A stretch of DNA of 64,000 nucleotides, taken from NCBI GenBank assembly GCA_934663775.1, contig CAKUKU010000003.1, positions 1 through 64,000 of the forward strand. Reading direction: 5' to 3'. This document shows positions 36,394 through 45,659 of this stretch, one piece after another; position 1 is the first letter of the stretch; every line of letters starts with the position of its first letter. The position numbers and the translations under genes were made by a program. Below the pieces are notes generated by a model. It saw only the letters and a list, made by a program, of their open reading frames with translations, was not told the origin of the DNA and did not search any database. Source of the stretch: an uncultured Ellagibacter sp. GTDB taxonomy: Bacteria; Actinomycetota; Coriobacteriia; Coriobacteriales; Eggerthellaceae.

Positions 36394-38372
36394 GTTCGAA
36401 GGGCGCGGGCGGCGGCAACAAGCGAAATCGTGGGGCGCGTGGAGGCGAAAACTGCAGTCGGGGCCGCGGAGCCCAAAACCGCGCACGCCGCGGTGTTGCG
36501 CGTTCGTCTCGACCCGAGCGCGTCCCCTTTGATGCGAGCGTGTTGGAAGGTGCAAGCGCACTTGAGGTATCGAACGTCGCGCTTCCGCTCGATGCGGGGC
36601 TTCGGGGGCCGCATGCCGAGGAGCTCACTCGCGAAGCGCTTGGTCGCGCGCTGGGGATCGCGCCCGAAAAGATCGTCTCGCATTCGCTCGTGAAGCGCAG
36701 CGTCGATGCTCGCAAGAAGGCGAACGTGCACTTCAATGCCACGTTTGAAGTTCATTTGGCAAGCGATGCCTCCGCGCGCAAGCTCTCCCCGGCGCGCGGG
36801 GTTTCCGTGCGCCCGCGCGTTCCGCCTGAGCCCCTCACGATTCCCGATCTTCATGCGCAGGCTGTGCGTGGCGACGAGCGCATCGTCGTTGCAGGTATGG
36901 GACCTGCGGGTCTATTCTGCGCGCTCTATCTGGCTGAGGCGGGGTTGCGCCCGCTTGTGGTCGAGCGCGGAGCCGCAGTCGACGAGCGACTCGCCGCGAT
37001 CGAATCGTTCAATGCGGGCGGTGCTCTCGACACGGCGGCGAACGTGCAGTTTGGCGAGGGCGGGGCGGGCACGTTCTCTGACGGCAAGCTGACCACCGGC
37101 ACGAAAAGCACACACATCCGCCATGTGCTCGAAGCGTTCGTCCAGGCGGGTGCGCCCGCCGAGATTCTCTGGCAAGCGAAACCCCATATCGGCACCGACA
37201 AGCTTCCCGACGTCGTGAAAAACATCAGGGAACGAATTATTTCCGCAGGCGGCGAGGTTCGTTTTCTCACTCGTCTCGCCGACGTCGAGATGGCGAGCGG
37301 GCAGGTGCGTGCAGCCGTGTTGGAAGATTCTCGCACGGGCGCGCGTGAGACGGTTCCCGCTTCGCGGATTGTCGTCGCCTGCGGGCATTCGGCGCGCGAC
37401 GTGTTCGAACTTGCTCGCGATCGCGGCTTCGCGCTCGAGCGAAAGCCCTTTTCGATGGGCGTCCGCATTGAGCACCCGCAGGCGCTCATCAACCGCGCAC
37501 AGTACGGAAGCGCTGCGAATCATGCGGCGCTCGGCGCGGCGGACTATAAGATGGCGGTGCGCGTGCCGGCAGGCAAAGACGCAGGCCAAGCGAGGGAGGA
37601 CGGTCGCGCGGACAGTACCCGAGGCGTGTACACGTTCTGCATGTGTCCAGGCGGGGAAGTAGTCGCTGCGGCAAGCGAAGAGGGCGGCGTCGTCGTGAAC
37701 GGGATGAGTCGTTTCGCCCGCGATGGCGAGAACGCGAACAGCGCCCTGCTCGCCGATGTGCGGCCGGACGACTTGCCGGGCGATGACGTCATGGAGGGTG
37801 TTCGCCTGCAGCGCAAGGTCGAGCGCGCCGCATTCGACCTTGCTGCTCGCAACGGCGGCGCGCCCTATGCGGCACCGGCGCAAACGGTGGGGGACTTCCT
37901 CTCGGTGGGAGCGGCGCACGGCTTGCGGGAGGCGCGTGGCTCTCGCGCGTCCCGCAATGCCGCCGCGCATCCTGTGCGCCCGAGTTATCCTCGCGGTGTC
38001 GTGTGGTGTGACCTGCGCGAATGCCTCCCCGATTTCATAGCCGATGCACTCGGGCGGGGCTTGCCGCTGCTCGATGCGAAGCTGCACGGGTTCGCCGATG
38101 CGGGCGCAGTGCTCACGGGGCCCGAAACGCGCAGCTCAAGCCCGATTCGCATGGTGCGTGGGGCGAACTTCCAGGCGCGGTTGGCTTCTGCATCTGGGCT
38201 TGCCGATGTCTCGCCCGCGCAAGGCGGGGAACTCGATGACGACCCGAGAACGGGCGTTTACCCGTGCGGTGAGGGCGCGGGCTATGCGGGAGGTATCATG
38301 AGCGCTGCGGTCGATGGTCTGCGCGTCGCCGAGACGATAGCGTCGCAGATCCTCTCCACGCAGGGGCGATAA
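36390..38372 (+). CDS. FAD-dependent oxidoreductase (COG2509-like)
   Basis: 660 residues. A basic, low-complexity N-terminus (1-45) and a small alpha/beta domain with the SLVKRSVDARKK pattern precede the FAD domain (VVAGMGPAGLFCALYLAEAG, about 165-190). GEGGAGTFSDGKLTTGTKS and the C-terminal GEGAGYAGGIMSAAVDGLRVAE are the hallmarks of this uncharacterised dehydrogenase family. Longer than the usual 530 residues because of the N-terminal extension. Overlaps the upstream flavoprotein gene by 4 nt. Confidence 0.88.
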   Translation: MSSKGAGGGNKRNRGARGGENCSRGRGAQNRARRGVARSSRPERVPFDASVLEGASALEVSNVALPLDAGLRGPHAEELTREALGRALGIAPEKIVSHSLVKRSVDARKKANVHFNATFEVHLASDASARKLSPARGVSVRPRVPPEPLTIPDLHAQAVRGDERIVVAGMGPAGLFCALYLAEAGLRPLVVERGAAVDERLAAIESFNAGGALDTAANVQFGEGGAGTFSDGKLTTGTKSTHIRHVLEAFVQAGAPAEILWQAKPHIGTDKLPDVVKNIRERIISAGGEVRFLTRLADVEMASGQVRAAVLEDSRTGARETVPASRIVVACGHSARDVFELARDRGFALERKPFSMGVRIEHPQALINRAQYGSAANHAALGAADYKMAVRVPAGKDAGQAREDGRADSTRGVYTFCMCPGGEVVAAASEEGGVVVNGMSRFARDGENANSALLADVRPDDLPGDDVMEGVRLQRKVERAAFDLAARNGGAPYAAPAQTVGDFLSVGAAHGLREARGSRASRNAAAHPVRPSYPRGVVWCDLRECLPDFIADALGRGLPLLDAKLHGFADAGAVLTGPETRSSSPIRMVRGANFQARLASASGLADVSPAQGGELDDDPRTGVYPCGEGAGYAGGIMSAAVDGLRVAETIASQILSTQGR

Positions 38373-38522
38373 CCTTGCTGCCCCGACCGCTTTCTGGGTA
38401 ACGTTGAGCATGGTGGGCAATGTGTCAAGGGACATAATCGTACGGTGGTGCCTTTGCAGGCAATTTCGGCTCAATGCGCTCCTTGCGCCCGCCATATCGC
38501 ATGGTTGAAACGCTCAAACGGG

Positions 38523-38707
38523 AAAAGTGGGTCACGAATCCGCGTTATGCGCAGACATCCTTCTCTGATAGCAATCAATGTACTCGAGTCGGTCGAAGTT
38601 ACTACCCATTTTCATTGAAAATGGGTAGTAACGGAGCATGTTTCTTACGAGTACGTCCGTTAGAAGATATCGGCAATGCGCAGAACGCGGATTCGTGACC
38701 AACTTTT
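38523..38707. mobile_element. MITE-like element E1 (185 bp, 31-bp inverted ends)
   Basis: Ends 38523-38553 and 38677-38707 are inverted repeats with two mismatches; both contain TCACGAATCCGCGTT. The 123-nt interior holds a perfect 16-bp stem (38598-38613 with 38617-38632) and an outer GTACTCG/CGAGTAC pair. The same ends, with an interior of identical length, form element E2 at 61800. Located between convergent genes. The rest of 38373-38813 shows no gene. Confidence 0.85.
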
Positions 38708-38813
38708 GAGCTTTTTGCATTTCGCGGCCCTCAAAACGAATCCTGCAGTGCCATCTGCAGTCGAACTCGCTGCCTTGGTGGCGCGCCTGCCCGCCGTTGC
38801 ACTTGGATGCTGG

Positions 38814-39236
38814 TCAGCTTTCTCCCAGTTCGGCCGCCCAATCGAAGTCGGCGGGCGGCGCGGTCGGGGCGCCCTCGGGCACTCCCTCCAAGTCGCTCGC
38901 GTCCGACGAGAAGCCATCCCATAGGCAGGTGCCCATATCCACGTGGCTCCCATCTGCGAAGATGACGCCTTCTTCCTCGAGCAACGCCTGTTGCACGTCG
39001 GGGCCGCCGAACGCGTAGCCCTCGCAAATACGTCCATCCTTGAACACGACCCGATGGCAGGGGATGCCGGTTTGCGTCTGCGTATCCCAGGGTTCGGGGT
39101 TGTCGTGCATCGCATATCCCACGAAACGCGCCTTGCGCGGCGCCCCGATAAGCCGCGCCACCAGCCCATATGAGGCGACTTTGCCGCGCGGGATGCGCCT
39201 GACCGTATCGTAAACCTTGTCCGAGAACTCGCCCAT
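38814..39236 (-). CDS. MGMT-family DNA alkyltransferase-like protein
   Basis: 140 residues: only the DNA-binding/active-site domain. The helix-turn-helix VYDTVRRIPRGKVASYGLVARLIG and the alkyl-acceptor motif GIPCHRVV with its cysteine are present. It therefore resembles a compact O6-methylguanine-DNA methyltransferase; proteins of this size are often annotated MGMT family or ATL, but true ATLs lack the cysteine. Promoter TTGTAT-N17-TATCCT on the minus strand (39294-39266). ATG 39236. Confidence 0.88.
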   Translation of the reverse strand: MGEFSDKVYDTVRRIPRGKVASYGLVARLIGAPRKARFVGYAMHDNPEPWDTQTQTGIPCHRVVFKDGRICEGYAFGGPDVQQALLEEEGVIFADGSHVDMGTCLWDGFSSDASDLEGVPEGAPTAPPADFDWAAELGES

Positions 39237-39377
39237 GCTGCTCGCTTTCCTTGTCGTACGCGAATAGGATAGCCTAAAAGTGCGAGTGATACAATTCATG
39301 GCACGTCGGTGCGCGGCGCCGTCGCGGTCTCTCGAAGCGATTCGGAGGGGGTTGGCGCCCGCTCCCATGCGAGGGCG

Positions 39378-39405
39378 TTGACTCGCGTCGCTCGACGGCA
39401 ATAAC
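39378..39405 (+). promoter_or_regulatory. tsaC: Probable original promoter of tsaC, cut off by the island
   Basis: TTGACT-N16-AATAAC points rightward and ends 7 nt before the direct repeat at 39412. Joining 39419 to 43983 restores a short leader with AAAAGG before the tsaC ATG (44007). Confidence 0.4.
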
Positions 39406-39411
39406 GCTGAA

Positions 39412-39419
39412 GTAATTTG
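39412..39419. repeat. Left copy of 8-bp target duplication
   Basis: GTAATTTG, identical and in the same orientation at 43975-43982, directly outside the inverted ends of the island. Confidence 0.85.
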
Positions 39420-39421
39420 GG

Positions 39422-39546
39422 GTATGTAAAATAAGTGGTTGGAATTGTTAAGTAGCTGGTTGGAAGATTTTCCCAATCGCTTTGTTAAACCATTGGTTGG
39501 ATTCTCGACCGAGACGACCTGCTTAGTTGTAAAAAACTGGTTGGAA
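39422..39546 (+). repeat. Left-end iterons of the island (4 copies)
   Basis: Direct copies with consensus TTGTTAAacnncTGGTTGgAa at 39422-39444 (GTATGTAAAATAAGTGGTTG...), 39444-39465, 39480-39502 and 39524-39546. Spacing is irregular (21, 37 and 44 nt), unlike CRISPR. The last copy is followed by the inverted CAACCAACC (39550-39558). They match the right-end set. Confidence 0.85.
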
Positions 39547-39570
39547 AGACAACCAACCGAAAGGTCCGCC

Positions 39571-39654
39571 ATGGCTGCCGAGAAGAAGGCCTTCGACTAC
39601 GTCAACGACATCTGGTCTATGGCCGACTCCCTTCCCCACAGGAGAGCTCCTTGA
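39571..39654 (+). pseudogene. 5' stub of a type I restriction-modification methylase gene
   Basis: ATG 39571 opens a 27-residue reading. AFDYVNDIWSMAD is the characteristic N-terminus of HsdM-type subunits, which normally exceed 480 residues. Homology stops near codon 20 and the frame ends at 39654, overlapping the 3' end of the acetyltransferase gene on the other strand. Iterons lie directly upstream, in its promoter region. A broken remnant. Confidence 0.6.
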
Positions 39655-40201
39655 TCACTCTGGCGGGCACTCCGGCCACGACGCAGTTGTCCGGCACGTC
39701 CTTGGTGACGACCGCGCCAGCGGCGATAACCACGTTGCTGCCCACGGTCACGCCGCCCAGGATGGTGCAGTTGCCGCCAACCCACACGTCGTCGCCGAAG
39801 GCGATGGGCTCGCTGATGGCGAGGCGGTCGCGGCGGCCCTGAGGGTCTATCGGGTGCCCGGTCGTCGCTATGAGGGTGCCCGGCCCCACCATGCAGTAGT
39901 CGCCGAAGGTCACGGCCGCGCCGTCGAGGATGGTCACGTTGAAGTTGGCTGTGAAGCGCCTGCCGACGCGTATGTTCCCGCCGTTGTCGCAGTGGAACCC
40001 GGGCTGGATGTCCAGCTCCGGACCCGCCTCGCCGAGGAGCTCGCGCGCCGCCGCCTCGCGCCCGGCAGCGTCGAGCGGGTCGACCGCGTTGAACTTGGCG
40101 CAGCGCATCGACGCGGTGTCCTTCATCTCCACCAGCTCGGGGTCGTCGTAGCGGTACGGAAGCCCCGCCCGCAACTTCTCCATCTCGGTCATGTCGACCA
40201 T
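39617..40201 (-). CDS. Maltose/galactoside O-acetyltransferase-like (hexapeptide repeat)
   Basis: 194 residues. Left-handed beta-helix acetyltransferase of the LacA/Maa/NodL group: N-terminal MRCAKFNAVDP-type cap, catalytic His in ATTGHPIDPQGR, and hexapeptide repeats (GGNCTILGGVTVGSNVVIAAGAVVTKDVPDN-type). Transfers acetyl from acetyl-CoA to a sugar or other hydroxyl. AGGAG 7 nt before ATG 40201. Last gene of the island operon, 3 nt after its neighbour. Confidence 0.93.
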   Translation of the reverse strand: MVDMTEMEKLRAGLPYRYDDPELVEMKDTASMRCAKFNAVDPLDAAGREAAARELLGEAGPELDIQPGFHCDNGGNIRVGRRFTANFNVTILDGAAVTFGDYCMVGPGTLIATTGHPIDPQGRRDRLAISEPIAFGDDVWVGGNCTILGGVTVGSNVVIAAGAVVTKDVPDNCVVAGVPARVIKELSCGEGSRP

Positions 40202-40204
40202 GGC

Positions 40205-40630
40205 CTAGCTCCTCTCTCGCTCGGCGGCCGCGATGGCCGCCTCGGCTGCCCGCACGGCGGCTTCCACCTTGTCCGGGCAGCAAAGCGGGTAGGGCCTGCC
40301 GCCCTCCATGAGCTCGATGCAGCGCGTGGAGCCGAGCTCGCGCTCAAAGCGTTCGCACATCCCGCTCACGGCCCCGTACACCTCGGGCCGAGACACGCCC
40401 GGCAGCCGGTTGACGATGGCGCTCACGGCGCAGGCCGCAGCGGTCACCGCCCCGCACTCCGCCTGCCTGCCACCCAGGCCGCCGCCGAGCCCCTCCGCCA
40501 GGGAGAGCGCTTCGGACAGGCCCAAGCCGACCTCGCTGGCGTACGCGTACATCACCGCCTGGGAGCAGGTGCGCTCGCCCGTGGCGTACGCCGCCCGCGC
40601 GGACTCTACCCTCTTCTCGGGATCCCTCAT
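40205..40630 (-). CDS. C_GCAxxG_C_C family redox-like protein
   Basis: 141 residues. Conserved cysteines are arranged as in this family: TCSQAV near 22-27, GRQAECGAVTAAAC in the centre and a C-terminal YPLCCPDKV. The family is small, often next to oxidoreductases, and of unproven function. AAGGAGG lies 5 nt before ATG 40630; the preceding GTG is too close. Middle of the island operon. Confidence 0.85.
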   Translation of the reverse strand: MRDPEKRVESARAAYATGERTCSQAVMYAYASEVGLGLSEALSLAEGLGGGLGGRQAECGAVTAAACAVSAIVNRLPGVSRPEVYGAVSGMCERFERELGSTRCIELMEGGRPYPLCCPDKVEAAVRAAEAAIAAAERERS

Positions 40631-40685
40631 CACGTCCTCCTTCGTCGCGGGGCGGCGGGGCCGATGCGCCGCCGTCTCGTTGCGG

Positions 40686-41189
40686 CTATTTCAGCACCTG
40701 CGCGATCCTTCCCATGAAATGCGCATGGGGCGGCATGTCACGGTAGTACTGCTCCATGAACTCTTCCGGGATGGCGGCCGGGTCGAGCGGCTGGGCGTAG
40801 ATCTTCTCGCACACCAGCGTCGTGTCGGCCTCCTCGAAGGTCACGGCACCCTCCAGCATCTTCGGCGTCAGCTTCGTCAGCGCCACCTTGTCCCCGTCGC
40901 GGCCCGACTTCGTGCCGAGCGTCATCAGGTCGTCGTGGTACTCGGCCGGGAAGAAGCTCACCGTGAAGCTTCCGTGGCGCTCCAGAAACTCATAGGTATA
41001 GCGCGCCGGCGTGACCCAGCAGTTCACGACCGGCTGCCACCACATGTCGCCCATCGAGCCCCAGGCTATGGTCATGGTGTTCCAGTCCTCGGGCGTGCCC
41101 ACCGTGATAAGCGCCCAGTCGTTGATCAGACGCGGCAGCAGCCCCGCCTGGACCTTCTCTATCTCGTGCTTGTCGGTGATGGCCTTCAC
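40686..41189 (-). CDS. Flavin reductase-like (FMN-binding split barrel) protein
   Basis: 167 residues. INDWALITVGTPEDWNTMTIAWGSMGDMWWQPV and SFTVSFF are typical of FMN-binding flavin reductase domains that use NAD(P)H to reduce flavin or act directly on a substrate. Start GTG 41189, with AAGGAAG 5 nt upstream; the longer in-frame reading overlaps the alcohol dehydrogenase gene. 13 nt after the dehydrogenase stop. Confidence 0.9.
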   Translation of the reverse strand: MKAITDKHEIEKVQAGLLPRLINDWALITVGTPEDWNTMTIAWGSMGDMWWQPVVNCWVTPARYTYEFLERHGSFTVSFFPAEYHDDLMTLGTKSGRDGDKVALTKLTPKMLEGAVTFEEADTTLVCEKIYAQPLDPAAIPEEFMEQYYRDMPPHAHFMGRIAQVLK

Positions 41190-41202
41190 GTCCTCTTCCT
41201 TT

Positions 41203-42363
41203 CTACTTGTAGCTGCGCTCGAGCATGCCGAGCACATCTTCGTCGGTCAGCTTCACCGGGTCGGCGTCGTTGTTGCCGCCCCACACCTCATGGTACTTCG
41301 CCACCACGCCGGGAAGCTCCTCGCGGGTTATGCCGTAGTCGCTCATCCTCAGCTTCGCGCAGTTCACGTCGGCGATCAGCATGTCGAGCGCCGCTACGAA
41401 GTCCGCCCCGCCCGCAGCTCCTTCGACGCCCATGGCGCGGGCCATCTTGGCCATCTGGCCCTCGCAGCACTTGCGCTCGGCGAAGAAGCCGAAGTACTCG
41501 TGGCTGATCATGATGAGCCCGGCGCCGTGCACGAGCTCGGGGTGTGCGCTGCCTAGCGCGTGCTCCATCGTGTGCTCTGACGTGCACAGCATGTAGTAGC
41601 CCGCAAGGGTGTTGGCTATGGCCATGTTGTTGCGGGCCTCCTTGTCGGATCCGTCCGCCACGGCGCGGGGCAGGTACTCCGCGATGAGCTCGATGGCCTT
41701 GAGCGCGAACATCTCGCCGACGACATGCTCGTTCACGTTGATCACCGACTCGGCCGCATGGAAGAAGGCGTCCATGCCCTGCCATGCGGTGAAGGTGGGC
41801 GGCACGCTCATCATCAGGTCGGAGTCAACGACCGAAATGGTCGGGTACATCGAGGCGTAGCCGGTCTTCTCCTGCGTCTCGTCGTTGCTGATGACCGACC
41901 ACATGTCCACTTCCGATCCCGTGCCCGCGCTCGTGGTCACGCACACGAGCGGCAGCGGCGCGGCCTCGGGCGTCTTCTGCCCGCCGGACGCGGAAGGCGC
42001 GTAGTCCCAGCACGAGCCCTCGTTGGTCGCTACTATGGCGATGGCCTTGGCCGCGTCCATCACCGAGCCGCCGCCGAGGGCGACCACGAAGTCGCAGCCT
42101 TCCTCCACGGCGAGCGCGGCGGCGTCGTCGACGTTGCCGGCGGTGGGGTTGGGGCGCACCTGGTCGAACAGGACGTGACCCACTCCGGCGGCGTCGAGCT
42201 CGGCCACAAGCGCGTCGAGCTGCCCGTGGCGCCTCATCGAGCCGCCCTGGCTGATGGCGACGAGCGCCTTGGATCCGGGAAGCTTCTCATCATGCAGCTT
42301 CTTCAATGACCCCGCTCCATACAGGATGCGCGTGGGGATGTCGTAGACGAACTGGTCAACCAT
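41203..42363 (-). CDS. Iron-containing alcohol dehydrogenase
   Basis: 386 residues. N-terminal NAD(P)-binding fold with ALGGGSVMDAAKAIA; C-terminal metal domain with GMDAFFHAAES, SEHTMEHALGSAHPELVHGAGL (the metal-binding histidines). Oxidises an alcohol or reduces an aldehyde/ketone; closest in style to lactaldehyde/butanol dehydrogenases, substrate unknown. ATG 42363 after AGGAGAAAAGCC. First gene of the island operon. Confidence 0.94.
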   Translation of the reverse strand: MVDQFVYDIPTRILYGAGSLKKLHDEKLPGSKALVAISQGGSMRRHGQLDALVAELDAAGVGHVLFDQVRPNPTAGNVDDAAALAVEEGCDFVVALGGGSVMDAAKAIAIVATNEGSCWDYAPSASGGQKTPEAAPLPLVCVTTSAGTGSEVDMWSVISNDETQEKTGYASMYPTISVVDSDLMMSVPPTFTAWQGMDAFFHAAESVINVNEHVVGEMFALKAIELIAEYLPRAVADGSDKEARNNMAIANTLAGYYMLCTSEHTMEHALGSAHPELVHGAGLIMISHEYFGFFAERKCCEGQMAKMARAMGVEGAAGGADFVAALDMLIADVNCAKLRMSDYGITREELPGVVAKYHEVWGGNNDADPVKLTDEDVLGMLERSYK

Positions 42364-42403
42364 GGCTTTTCTCCTATCTCGTTCCTGCTTTCGTTGCTTA
42401 TGT

Positions 42404-42437
42404 CTTACGCCTTCCAGTCCGCCCCGGAAGGCGTAAG
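42404..42437 (-). other. 12-bp hairpin in the leader of the island operon
   Basis: CTTACGCCTTCC (42404-42415) pairs with GGAAGGCGTAAG (42426-42437), between the probable promoter and the dehydrogenase start on the minus strand. No T tract: a structured leader rather than an obvious terminator. Confidence 0.55.
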
Positions 42438-42477
42438 GCCGCGCTTTACCCTTTCTCTTATCTTCTTTACAGTGTAG

Positions 42478-42552
42478 CTTAACTTTCGTTAAGTTCTTAC
42501 TGAATGTAATTCTATAGAGTAAATTGTTTACCATCAATAAAGTTCTAACTTT
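42478..42552. promoter_or_regulatory. Operator region between the island operon and its LacI-type regulator
   Basis: Three short palindromes lie in this AT-rich stretch: CTTAACTTTCGTTAAG (42478-42493), GTAAATTGTTTAC (42519-42531) and AAAGTTCTAACTTT (42539-42552). They are the candidate binding sites for the divergent LacI-family protein. TATAGA/TATAGAG-like -10s lie between them on both strands. Confidence 0.55.
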
Positions 42553-42610
42553 ATTTTTGTTAAGTGTCTGGTAGAATGCCCATGAAGCAAAACGTCGGGA
42601 AGGGCATGGG

Positions 42611-43642
42611 ATGAGGCTCAAGAACAAGGACATAGCGCAGATGCTCGGCATATCGGTCACGGCGGTGTCGCTTGCCATCAACGGCAAGCCGGGGGTGTCG
42701 GACGATACGCGGCGCAAAGTGCTCGCGCTCGTCGCCGACAGCAACCAGCGCGCGCTAGAGGGGGTCATGGCCAAGGTGGAGAAGGCCGGCAGCGTCGCCT
42801 TCGTCGTGCACAAGGCGCACGGCGCCGTCATCAACGAGAACCAGTTCTTCTCGAACCTCGTCGAGGTCGTGCAGCAGGAGGCCCAGGCGCGCGGCTACTC
42901 GCTAACCATCGTGCACTACCGCCCCGGCCAGGACATGGACGCACATCTGGAGTACGTGGGCAACCTCGCCCCCGACGGGCTGCTCCTCCAGGCAACGGAG
43001 CTCACGGAGGAGGCGCTGCGGCGCTACCTGGAGCTGGGGCTGCCCACGGTTCTGCTCGACGGCTACTTCGACCTCGAGCCGGTCGACTCGGTGACGCTCG
43101 ACGACCAGACGTCGATCTACCGGGCCTACGCGTACGCCCGGGACATGGGCCACGAGCGCATCGGCTTCCTCGCTGGCACGCCGCGCATCAAGAACTTCGA
43201 GCACCACCTGGACGGCTTCTGGAAGGGCGTGCACGACCTGGGGCCCGCGGGCGCCGACCATCCCGTCGTCGAGCTCGGCTGCACGTTCGAGGAGGCGCGG
43301 CGCGACATGGCCGCCTTCCTCGCGAATCCGCCCGACGGTTTCCGGATGCCCACGTGCCTGATCGCCGACCTCGACAACATCGCGCTCGGCGCCATGCGGG
43401 CGCTCAAGGACGCGGGCTACTCCATCCCCGGGGACGTGTCGGTCATCGGCTACGGCAACACGGGCATTGCCGCCATCAGCGAGCCGCCCCTCACCACCAC
43501 CCAGATCGAGATGTACGAGAGCGGTCGCCTCGCCATGAGCCTGCTCGCCGAGCGCATGCGAAACCCGCACAAGGCCGCCGTCACGACGACGATGGTCTCC
43601 TCGTACCTCGTCGAGCGCGGCAGCGTCCGCCGCCTGATCTAG
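42611..43642 (+). CDS. LacI-family transcriptional regulator
   Basis: 343 residues. N-terminal helix-turn-helix NKDIAQMLGISVTAVSLAIN and hinge-like SDDTRRKVLALV, followed by a periplasmic-binding-protein-like ligand domain (GSVAFVVHKAHG, DGLLLQATE, PGDVSVIGYGNTGIAA). Ligand probably a sugar or related small molecule. ATG 42611 has GGGAAGGGC upstream. Divergent from the alcohol dehydrogenase operon, which it presumably controls through the palindromes between them. Confidence 0.95.
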   Translation: MRLKNKDIAQMLGISVTAVSLAINGKPGVSDDTRRKVLALVADSNQRALEGVMAKVEKAGSVAFVVHKAHGAVINENQFFSNLVEVVQQEAQARGYSLTIVHYRPGQDMDAHLEYVGNLAPDGLLLQATELTEEALRRYLELGLPTVLLDGYFDLEPVDSVTLDDQTSIYRAYAYARDMGHERIGFLAGTPRIKNFEHHLDGFWKGVHDLGPAGADHPVVELGCTFEEARRDMAAFLANPPDGFRMPTCLIADLDNIALGAMRALKDAGYSIPGDVSVIGYGNTGIAAISEPPLTTTQIEMYESGRLAMSLLAERMRNPHKAAVTTTMVSSYLVERGSVRRLI

Positions 43643-43684
43643 CGATTCGCGCCTTTGAACATGCCCGCATGCTCTATCCGCCTG

Positions 43685-43713
43685 TATAATGGTCGGGTTG
43701 CAAACCCCGACCA
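43685..43713 (+). promoter_or_regulatory. TATAAT box and TGGTCGGG palindrome ahead of the methylase stub
   Basis: TATAAT (43685-43690) overlaps the first base of TGGTCGGG (43690-43697), which pairs with CCCGACCA (43706-43713). GGAG at 43719-43722 then precedes GTG 43731. It looks like the intact control region of a restriction-modification gene. Confidence 0.5.
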
Positions 43714-43730
43714 TGACCGGAGCAGATACC

Positions 43731-43829
43731 GTGGCAAAGAACAAGAGCCTGAACGCCGCCGCCAAAGCCAAGGTACGTTCAACACCGATGTGCACGCACG
43801 ACGTAAATCGTGGTGCACATCGGTGTTGA
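43731..43829 (+). pseudogene. 5' stub of an adenine-specific (EcoRI-type) methyltransferase gene
   Basis: GTG 43731 encodes MAKNKSLNAAAKAK, the typical opening of EcoRI-family adenine methyltransferases (normally over 300 residues). Homology breaks exactly where the 22-bp inverted repeat begins at 43774, and the frame stops at 43829. A remnant. Confidence 0.5.
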
Positions 43830-43834
43830 ACGTA
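43774..43834. repeat. 61-bp near-perfect hairpin
   Basis: Arms 43774-43795 and 43813-43834 are perfect over 22 bp; the loop itself can form CACGA/TCGTG. Only about six bases remain unpaired plus one bulge. It interrupts the methyltransferase stub. Confidence 0.85.
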
Positions 43835-43848
43835 GACAGCGGAGGCCG

Positions 43849-43972
43849 TTTTGTTAAACCCCTGGTTGAATGGGATTCATTCCGGTTGTTAAGTTATAGG
43901 TTGAAAACAAGCAGAGTCTCCAGCAACATTCAACCTGCGGTTTAACAATCTTCAACCAGTAATTTTACATAC
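43849..43972. repeat. Right-end iterons of the island (4 copies)
   Basis: Two copies on the plus strand (43849-43871, 43884-43906) and two on the minus strand (about 43928-43950, 43950-43972), consensus TTGTTAAacnncTGGTTGAa. The outermost, GTATGTAAAATTACTGGTTG on the minus strand, mirrors the first left-end copy. Confidence 0.85.
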
Positions 43973-43974
43973 CC

Positions 43975-43982
43975 GTAATTTG
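43975..43982. repeat. Right copy of 8-bp target duplication
   Basis: GTAATTTG, identical to 39412-39419, directly after the inverted terminus. Confidence 0.85.
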
Positions 43983-44006
43983 ATACCTGCTTGAAAAGGT
44001 GGTCTC

Positions 44007-44615
44007 ATGGCTCGTCTCTCCGACTCGATCGCAGTTACGGCTTCTGTCCTTAAAAAGGGACAGCCGGCGATTTTTCCCACCGAAACGGTGTACGGGCTGG
44101 GCGTTTCGGTGGAGCATGCCGCAACGCCCCAGGTCCTCTACGACCTGAAGCGTCGCGATCGGAAAAAACCCATCTCGTGGCTCATTTCTCGACAAGACGA
44201 CCTCGTCCGTTTCGGTCGCTGTGTGCCGGATTTCGCCTTCGTGCTCGCCCGGACGTTCTGGCCGGGCCCGCTCACGCTTATCGTGAAGGCGTCGGTGGAG
44301 GTGCCCGAGGCGTTCCAATCGAAGGAAGGGACCATCGGTCTGCGCATGCCGAACAATCCCTGCGCGCTTGAGCTCATCGACGCGGTGGGGTGCCCACTCG
44401 CGACGACTTCGGCGAATATATCGGGCGAGCGCTCCGCAAGCTCGTTCGCCGAGCTTGACCCTGCGCTTTGCGCCCGGGTCGCGGCCGTGCTCTCCGATGG
44501 GGTCGACGGTGGCAAAAGCGGCGTCGCCTCGACCGTTATCGACTGCACGCAGGACCACCCCCTGATCGTGCGCGAGGGCGCCATTACCGTCGCGGATATC
44601 AATTCCCTTTCATAG
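44007..44615 (+). CDS. tsaC: L-threonylcarbamoyladenylate synthase
   Basis: 202 residues, YrdC/Sua5 fold. IFPTETVYGLG, KRRDRKKPISWL, FWPGPLTLIVKA and PLATTSANISGE are the family signatures. Makes threonylcarbamoyl-AMP for the t6A37 modification of tRNAs reading ANN codons, an essential step in most bacteria. No Sua5 C-terminal domain. AAAAGGTGG precedes ATG 44007. The island ends 32 nt upstream, so its expression now probably depends on a promoter in the island. Confidence 0.96.
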   Translation: MARLSDSIAVTASVLKKGQPAIFPTETVYGLGVSVEHAATPQVLYDLKRRDRKKPISWLISRQDDLVRFGRCVPDFAFVLARTFWPGPLTLIVKASVEVPEAFQSKEGTIGLRMPNNPCALELIDAVGCPLATTSANISGERSASSFAELDPALCARVAAVLSDGVDGGKSGVASTVIDCTQDHPLIVREGAITVADINSLS

Positions 44616-44693
44616 GGTTGCCTGCTTGCGCGGCTCGCCAGGCCGCTATACTGATGCTTGCTGGGGAAGTTGCTTCTGCTCAAGGAGGGTCTC

Positions 44694-45659
44694 GTGTCCA
44701 AACCGGTTGAGAAGTTGTCGATAGGCTTTAGGTCGTACGATCGGTCTTCCCAGATCAAAGGCGTGCTGTGGCAGCCTGTCGTCACCCACGGCTCATCTTC
44801 CGCCGCACCGCGTGCTATCGTGCAGATCGTGCATGGAATGGCGGAACACAGCGGTCGCTACGAAGAGTTCGCCCGCTATTTGGTCGATGCGGGTTTTGCG
44901 GTGTGCGCCCACGACCACATCGGGCACGGCCGCTCGGTCGCCGATCCGATGGATTTGGGACATATGCCGCTTGATCAGGGGAAAGACACCCTTATCGAAG
45001 ACGTCCACGAGCTGCGCAAGACGGTGAGCGCGCGCTTCTCGCGCAAGACCCCCTACTTCATCTTCGGGCACTCCATGGGGAGCTACGTCACGCGCGCATA
45101 TCTCTCCCGCCATGCGGAGGGTCTTGCGGGCGCCATCATCTGCGGCACCGGAAACGAGCCTGTCGTCAAGTCGAAGATGGGGCACGCGCTCGCGTCCCGC
45201 GTTGCCGCCAAGCAGGGAGAACGCACGCGCAGCAAGCTGCTCCACAACTTGGCTGACGGGTCGTTCTCGAAGGCCGTCAAGCATGCGCGCACGCCGGTTG
45301 ATTGGCTTTCCACCGATCCCGCGGTTGTCGACGCCTACCTCGCCGACGAGCTGTGCGGCCAGATGTTCACGGCCGGCGCCTACGCCACGCTCACGAGCCT
45401 CACCTCCGAGACGGCCACGCTCGATTCGGCGCTCGCCATCCCGCCTGATTTGCCCGTCCTGTTCATCGCCGGCGCGCTCGACCCGGTGGGGAACAAGGGG
45501 CGCGGCGTGAAGAGCGCGGCGGCCCTGTTCGAGCGCGCCGGTATCACCGACGTCGAAGTGAAGCTCTACAAGGGTATGCGCCACGAAATCCTGAACGAAC
45601 CGGGAAAGCGGCAGGTCTACGACGATGTGCTTGCCTGGGTCGACCGTCATATGGGTTGA
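44694..45659 (+). CDS. Alpha/beta hydrolase, monoacylglycerol-lipase-like (serine aminopeptidase S33 type)
   Basis: 321 residues. Oxyanion region HGMAEHSGRYEEFA, nucleophile elbow GHSMGS, acid in AGALDPVGNKG and His in YKGMRHEIL. HGMAEHSGRY and DHIGHGRS are typical of monoacylglycerol lipases and lysophospholipases. GTG 44694 follows AAGGAGG by 5 nt. The next gene, glpK, uses glycerol, the product of such hydrolysis, which supports a lipid-degrading role. Confidence 0.9.
   Translation: MSKPVEKLSIGFRSYDRSSQIKGVLWQPVVTHGSSSAAPRAIVQIVHGMAEHSGRYEEFARYLVDAGFAVCAHDHIGHGRSVADPMDLGHMPLDQGKDTLIEDVHELRKTVSARFSRKTPYFIFGHSMGSYVTRAYLSRHAEGLAGAIICGTGNEPVVKSKMGHALASRVAAKQGERTRSKLLHNLADGSFSKAVKHARTPVDWLSTDPAVVDAYLADELCGQMFTAGAYATLTSLTSETATLDSALAIPPDLPVLFIAGALDPVGNKGRGVKSAAALFERAGITDVEVKLYKGMRHEILNEPGKRQVYDDVLAWVDRHMG

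Follow-up and report, generated by a model that had tools for sequence, protein, structure and literature searches.

Mobile insertion cassettes of the MIC231 type consist of insertion sequence (IS) ends around passenger genes, without a transposase. Repeats of 8 bp are made by the ISL3, IS66 and IS1595 families, and the ends of Mu and Tn7 each hold several transposase sites in an asymmetric arrangement, with 5-bp duplications and TG..CA tips. Furuta et al. reportedly described in 2010 restriction-modification (R-M) genes lying between inverted repeats with short target duplications. According to a passage in PMC3129680, mobile insertion cassettes that lack a transposase can be activated by a cognate one, and IS6 elements have been reported with 8-bp repeats in a section of PMC7986276. 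Mutator-type elements (p-MULT: IS256, ISLre2/TnGBS, ISKra4 and others) are characterized in an excerpt of PMC3942029 by duplications of 8-9 bp, inverted repeats of 18-39 bp and a conserved terminal C.

The element analyzed here occupies positions 39420-43974 of the window (the whole stretch of DNA analyzed, 64,000 nucleotides) and is a variant of an already known kind, the mobile insertion cassette. It shares with such cassettes IS-like inverted ends around passenger genes, the lack of a transposase, and a duplicated target, two different 8-bp duplications having been found; it is distinguished by arrays of 19-bp sites within its ends and by two cargos in two lineages with a leftover hsdM start in common. 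We consider it very probable that this is a non-autonomous cargo transposon of the mobile-insertion-cassette type, moved in trans by a DDE transposase encoded elsewhere.

Boundaries of the element

The 4555 bp of the element are exactly bracketed by two copies of GTAATTTG, the left at 39412-39419 and the right at 43975-43982, precisely where the sequence-only reading had claimed a target duplication. The inverted termini that it had placed just inside these repeats are likewise present, with the tip GGGTATGTAAAAT at 39420-39432 (+) and 43962-43974 (-), and the inverted repeat extends further than the tip, to 25 bp (39420-39444 on the plus strand and 43950-43974 on the minus strand; 21/25 identical). 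All 25 positions of the right terminal repeat are identical to the right tip of a second element, found in the prophage contig L006. At up to 2 mismatches, GGGTATGTAAAAT matched only these two places in the 64-kb window, where 0.22 matches were expected from shuffling. An exact 10-bp inverted repeat closely adjoined on the outside by an exact direct repeat of 8 bp, with the two ends 0.5-10 kb apart, occurred once in the window, and 60 dinucleotide shuffles gave 2 such arrangements in total; the real pair is in fact 13+8, a combination counted on the real sequence alone. A weaker 8+6 criterion did not set the window apart (11 vs. a shuffle mean of 7.2). Five intact genes fill most of the element and have Pfam matches, none of them to a transposase or integrase, so the claimed absence of such an enzyme stands.

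Downstream lies tsaC (Sua5/YciO/YrdC; 44007-44615, plus strand), its start codon 24 bp past the right duplication, and excision of 39420-43974 together with one GTAATTTG copy would plausibly restore the tsaC leader. An island that arose without any mobility, through deletion and recombination around tsaC with repeats present by chance, would agree with the fact that no natural empty site was seen. That account runs against the repeat statistics (the 10+8 criterion vs. shuffles) and is contradicted by the second copy with a duplication of its own; we regard it as extremely improbable.

A second element in prophage contigs

A scan of viral contigs with the end pattern identified the second element in L006, a segment of a prophage record of 40 kb, where it occupies L006:2927-4021 (1,095 bp; tips at 37175 and 38269 of the record) with the 8-bp duplication CAAATAAA on both sides. 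Its cargo differs from that of the window and consists of a cut-down hsdM followed by a conserved gene for a 218-aa protein. There are thus two independent insertions with common ends at different 8-bp targets, GTAATTTG in the window and CAAATAAA in L006. The element is mobile, since the same ends frame different cargo in L006 with its own 8-bp duplication, and the claim that the locus is a cargo transposon without a transposase is borne out by this second element at another site. Because the same ends surround different genes and neither copy includes a transposase, the cassettes appear to be moved by an enzyme encoded outside them.

The L006 prophage shares 96% identity over 1994 bp with Bifidobacterium phage Bbif-1, and its host genus is probably Bifidobacterium. 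Neither the L006 element nor its left neighbor had a match in Bbif-1 itself, and the tip was missing there even with 1 mismatch allowed. In a related prophage, L008/L016, the insertion recurs at the identical site, again between two copies of CAAATAAA, so L006 and L008/L016 were counted as one insertion event. Two other prophage records (L039 and L040) have a 74% identical copy of the GmrSD-type gene that stands beside the L006 element; no element follows the stop codon of that gene, and neither whole record has a tip at up to 1 mismatch. Their flanks beyond the gene differ, so these records support insertion yet do not provide an exact empty site.

The GmrSD_N-type gene lies directly to the left of the prophage element in both contigs (L006:1649-2917; L008:4613-5950, the latter being the copy that was scanned), and the L006 reading frame departs from the L008 copy near its 3' end. 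Separately, L008:6064-6219, inside the hsdM remnant, holds an inverted duplication of ∼110 bp that is 90% identical to L006 in reverse, and is either a genomic quasi-palindrome or an assembly artefact.

Site arrays and the candidate transposase

The ends contain a feature that the earlier reading had missed. The motif TGTWAA-N6-GGTTGRA occurs 7 times in the 64 kb, always within the two ends of the element, and 0 times in 60 shuffles. The left array (39425-39545, plus strand) comprises sites at 39425-39443, 39446-39464 and 39483-39501 and a degenerate fourth at 39528-39545 that was read by eye, all four in one orientation. The right array (43852-43969, entered on the minus strand) comprises two sites on the minus strand (43951-43969 and 43929-43947) and two on the plus strand (43887-43905 and 43852-43870). 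The order of the right-end sites is the same in L006, and their spacing is 22/42/35 bp in the window vs. 22/42/36 bp in L006; between the two right ends, 64 of 76 site positions are identical, as compared with 29 of 51 spacer positions. Conservation of this geometry while the spacers drift is the pattern expected of protein-binding arrays, and both arrays are putative transposase-binding sites. In the left end of L006, ∼100 bp are missing, so that the first site is joined to the fourth-site region and the second and third sites are gone.

Relatives were sought with an end pattern that has four N between GGGTATGTAAAAT and GGTTG, as in the window ends, and with two internal-site patterns. In viral_contigs, the four-N end pattern gave 18 stretches, 2 of which were the known prophages; the other 16 were dismissed as chance, since none had internal sites within 160 bp. 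Both matches to a first internal-site pattern in viral_contigs were the known prophages, and the 4 matches to a second were these prophages and two chance stretches. Neither viral_contigs nor plasmids nor phages yielded an autonomous element that has such ends. At 1e-5, blastn of the ends found nothing among plasmids and phages, and with relaxed limits it gave only short and weak matches; among plasmids, the sole match to the left end of L006 was a 63-bp piece of hsdM in 4 Salmonella plasmids. This left end carries one extra G and is hence matched by a five-N pattern. Because the five-N pattern misses normal four-N ends, a genome_contigs scan made with it does not show absence from the 85,000 genomes; its two hits, L001 and L002, each had a single tip match and no internal sites, and were attributed to chance.

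Other candidates were discarded as well. Five HsdM relatives (L009-L013, 47-55% identical) had no internal sites in the stretch examined, and a single tip-like match, with 1 mismatch, was present in 1 of the 5 records, that of L012, which was also the one record with such a match among the 8 further records checked. L041 and L042 looked repetitive or coding by eye, and neither had the tip when 1 mismatch was allowed; at 2 mismatches, L041 had one distant match to it. No exact empty site was found in the records examined, L019 being a chance match of 13 bp without a tip, and the tip sequence was not found in the open-licence literature.

As to the family of the ends, the sequence-only reading had mentioned IS256 and IS66 and had assigned the element to neither. 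That doubt was lifted only in part. The 8-bp duplication, the 25-bp inverted repeat (21/25) and the terminal C (the ends read ...CCC) all lie within the traits that the excerpt of PMC3942029 gives for Mutator-type elements of the IS256 superfamily, and 4 and 7 IS256-family copies are reported for two B. longum genomes in a section of PMC2430713. The mover may thus be a p-MULT transposase that an IS of the same cell provides, which would make the cassette a bacterial analogue of Pack-MULEs, and we entertain this as a tentative possibility. Against it, the searches of viral_contigs, plasmids and phages turned up no IS that has these ends, and left/right-asymmetric arrays of 19-bp sites do not figure in the description given in that excerpt of PMC3942029. 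The element also differs in its extra internal sites. Because it contains no transposase, it is not classified as a p-MULT member, but only as possibly moved by one.

The site arrays, their asymmetry and their fixed spacing could instead mark the ends of an undescribed transposase, with multiple sites per end in the manner of Mu and Tn7, and with an 8-bp stagger and GGG tips. Mu and Tn7 themselves are both unfit, as their likeness in having several sites per end and asymmetric ends is accompanied by duplications of a different length (5 bp) and by TG tips; the element is therefore placed in no transposase family. No protein was found for such an enzyme, the case being drawn from end architecture, and we consider it possible though doubtful.

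Two further groups of movers were weighed. The tips of IS66 (GTAA) and ISL3 (GGCTCTT) are unlike those found here. IS6 comes closer, since besides the 8-bp repeat its tips start with GG and hold cTGTt (part of PMC7986276), and by eye GG and TGT stand in the same places here; however, the same part of PMC7986276 describes elements of 0.7-0.9 kb that have inverted repeats of 14 to 20 bp, so that size disagrees, and by eye the caaa block is out of register. A transposase of the IS6, ISL3, IS66 or IS1595 type is accordingly a quite unlikely mover. Even less probable is a tyrosine-recombinase trio of the RIT or mobile integrase cassette type, for which the 8-bp repeats would be crossover sequence. 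The B. longum cassettes share the probable host genus of L006 and repeats with TTGTTAA; in a section of PMC2430713, their repeat holds TTGTTAAGCC and their palindrome holds TTAAACC/GGTTTAA, which by eye loosely resemble the sites here. Nevertheless, neither three contiguous tyrosine recombinases nor the 20-bp palindrome is present here (the window lacks the palindrome even with 3 mismatches allowed, and viral_contigs lacks its exact form), the site spacing differs, and coupling sequences would hardly give two different perfect 8-bp duplications. Helicobacter TnPZ is also alike in its large cargo, inverted repeats and short duplication, but it has a conserved 7-bp target of its own, AAGAATG, and encodes XerT (passages in PMC2731543).

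In the preferred reading, i.e., movement in trans of a mobile insertion cassette, a DDE-type transposase from elsewhere, perhaps of a Mutator-like class, would bind the 19-bp sites arrayed at either end, bring the ends together and cut at the GGG/CCC tips. The ends would then be joined to a target opened with a stagger of 8 bp, the fill-in of which would produce the 8-bp duplication, and the content between the ends would be free to change. Staggered insertion by such a trans-acting enzyme would explain how two elements that encode no enzyme have two different perfect 8-bp duplications.

Cargo, remnants and neighboring genes

The left ends of the two elements have 79 identical bp in common (window 39539-39617), a stretch that runs from GGTTGGAAAG into the first part of hsdM; such identity of a Coriobacteriia-type chromosome with a Bifidobacterium-type prophage points to recent transfer. 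The start remnant of this type I methyltransferase gene in the window (39571-39631, plus strand) gave no match in an HMM search, for which it is too short; the longer remnant of L006 matches HsdM_N. By eye, homology with L006 ends near 39631, where the antisense gene for a maltose O-acetyltransferase-like protein begins (39617-40201, minus strand), and the last codons and stop of this gene are read from the opposite strand of the hsdM remnant. Since homology stops there and the tail of the acetyltransferase gene is built from the remnant, hsdM is where the junction arose, and R-M cargo gave way to the metabolic cluster. Because hsdM starts inside the left end in both copies, R-M cargo probably came first. 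The ancestral cargo would have included, as a minimum, a type I methyltransferase gene whose start lay inside the left end. In the lineage of the window, the alcohol dehydrogenase/flavin reductase cluster would have supplanted hsdM, one of the junctions falling within that gene; in the prophage copy, hsdM would have been cut down, with the conserved 218-aa gene behind it. The elements of Furuta et al. are reportedly alike in having an R-M gene between inverted repeats with a short duplication, whereas here there is an R-M remnant, replaced by metabolic cargo in one lineage.

These cassettes might even constitute an undescribed Actinomycetota transposon family with Mu/Tn7-like site arrays, GGG tips, an 8-bp stagger and movement only in trans, i.e., an exchangeable vehicle for R-M genes in one lineage and a metabolic operon in another that crosses between Coriobacteriia chromosomes and Bifidobacterium prophages, although we judge this unlikely. 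Metabolic operons and defence genes can travel between distantly related Actinomycetota in such cassettes, which standard annotation misses because no transposase is carried. The tip GGGTATGTAAAAT together with TGTWAA-N6-GGTTGRA arrays is a direct handle on the whole family and its enzyme.

The 218-aa protein of the prophage cargo (L006:3195-3848) has 89 metagenome homologues, and an R-x4-H motif is invariant in the 33 proteins aligned (the query and 32 of the 89). Its structural model is good (mean pLDDT 86), but every PDB match listed for it, HEPN entries included, had an E value above 1, so that it could not be accepted as a proven HEPN protein; it is possibly a HEPN-like defence protein. 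It had no Pfam, PADLOC or plasmid match, and its two viral matches under E 0.001 were unnamed or uncharacterised.

In the window, the acetyltransferase gene is followed by genes assigned by Pfam to a C_GCAxxG_C_C family redox protein (40205-40633, minus strand), a flavin reductase-like protein (40686-41192, minus), an iron-containing alcohol dehydrogenase (41203-42363, minus) and a LacI-family regulator (42611-43642, plus). PADLOC identified no defence gene among the five, giving one weak match (E 0.0066) on the LacI protein. The GC content is 0.64 for the whole element and 0.66 for the cargo, and the two ends are AT-rich (0.43 and 0.42). The alcohol dehydrogenase has relatives at 99% and 91%, and its two nearest named relatives (82 and 81%) are from Curtanaerobium and Tractidigestivibacter, both Coriobacteriia; the nearest named relative of TsaC is from Arabiibacter (Eggerthellaceae; 67%). 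The host is therefore probably a member of the Coriobacteriia. Searched whole against plasmids, the element matched 45 records, the best of which covered 5% of the query, and among the 20 plasmid matches listed the named features were acetyl- or acyltransferases.

Toward the right end, a 14-codon gene-start remnant, MAKNKSLNAAAKAK (43731-43772, plus strand), is preceded by a GGAG motif and looks like the beginning of an adenine methylase of the EcoRI type; it had no HMM match and no plasmid match. Directly after it stands a 61-bp hairpin with perfectly complementary 22-bp arms (43774-43834), which has no further copy in the window even when 3 mismatches are allowed. A promoter and terminator scan gave nothing above shuffles (1 vs. 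1.0; 2 vs. 3.0), Rfam had no match in 38000-44700, and a tRNA scan of the window found none.

Outside the element, eight other window genes that were checked are ordinary chromosomal ones, including ruvB, SHMT, FGGY kinase and ATP synthase A. The divergent left neighbor encodes an MGMT-like DNA-binding protein (38814-39224, minus strand; Pfam). To the left of that gene, 38470-38730 forms a long foldback with an RNA folding energy of -106.8 kcal/mol and a central 16-bp perfect stem; it resembles a MITE-type or foldback element and, by eye, bears no relation to the transposon ends.
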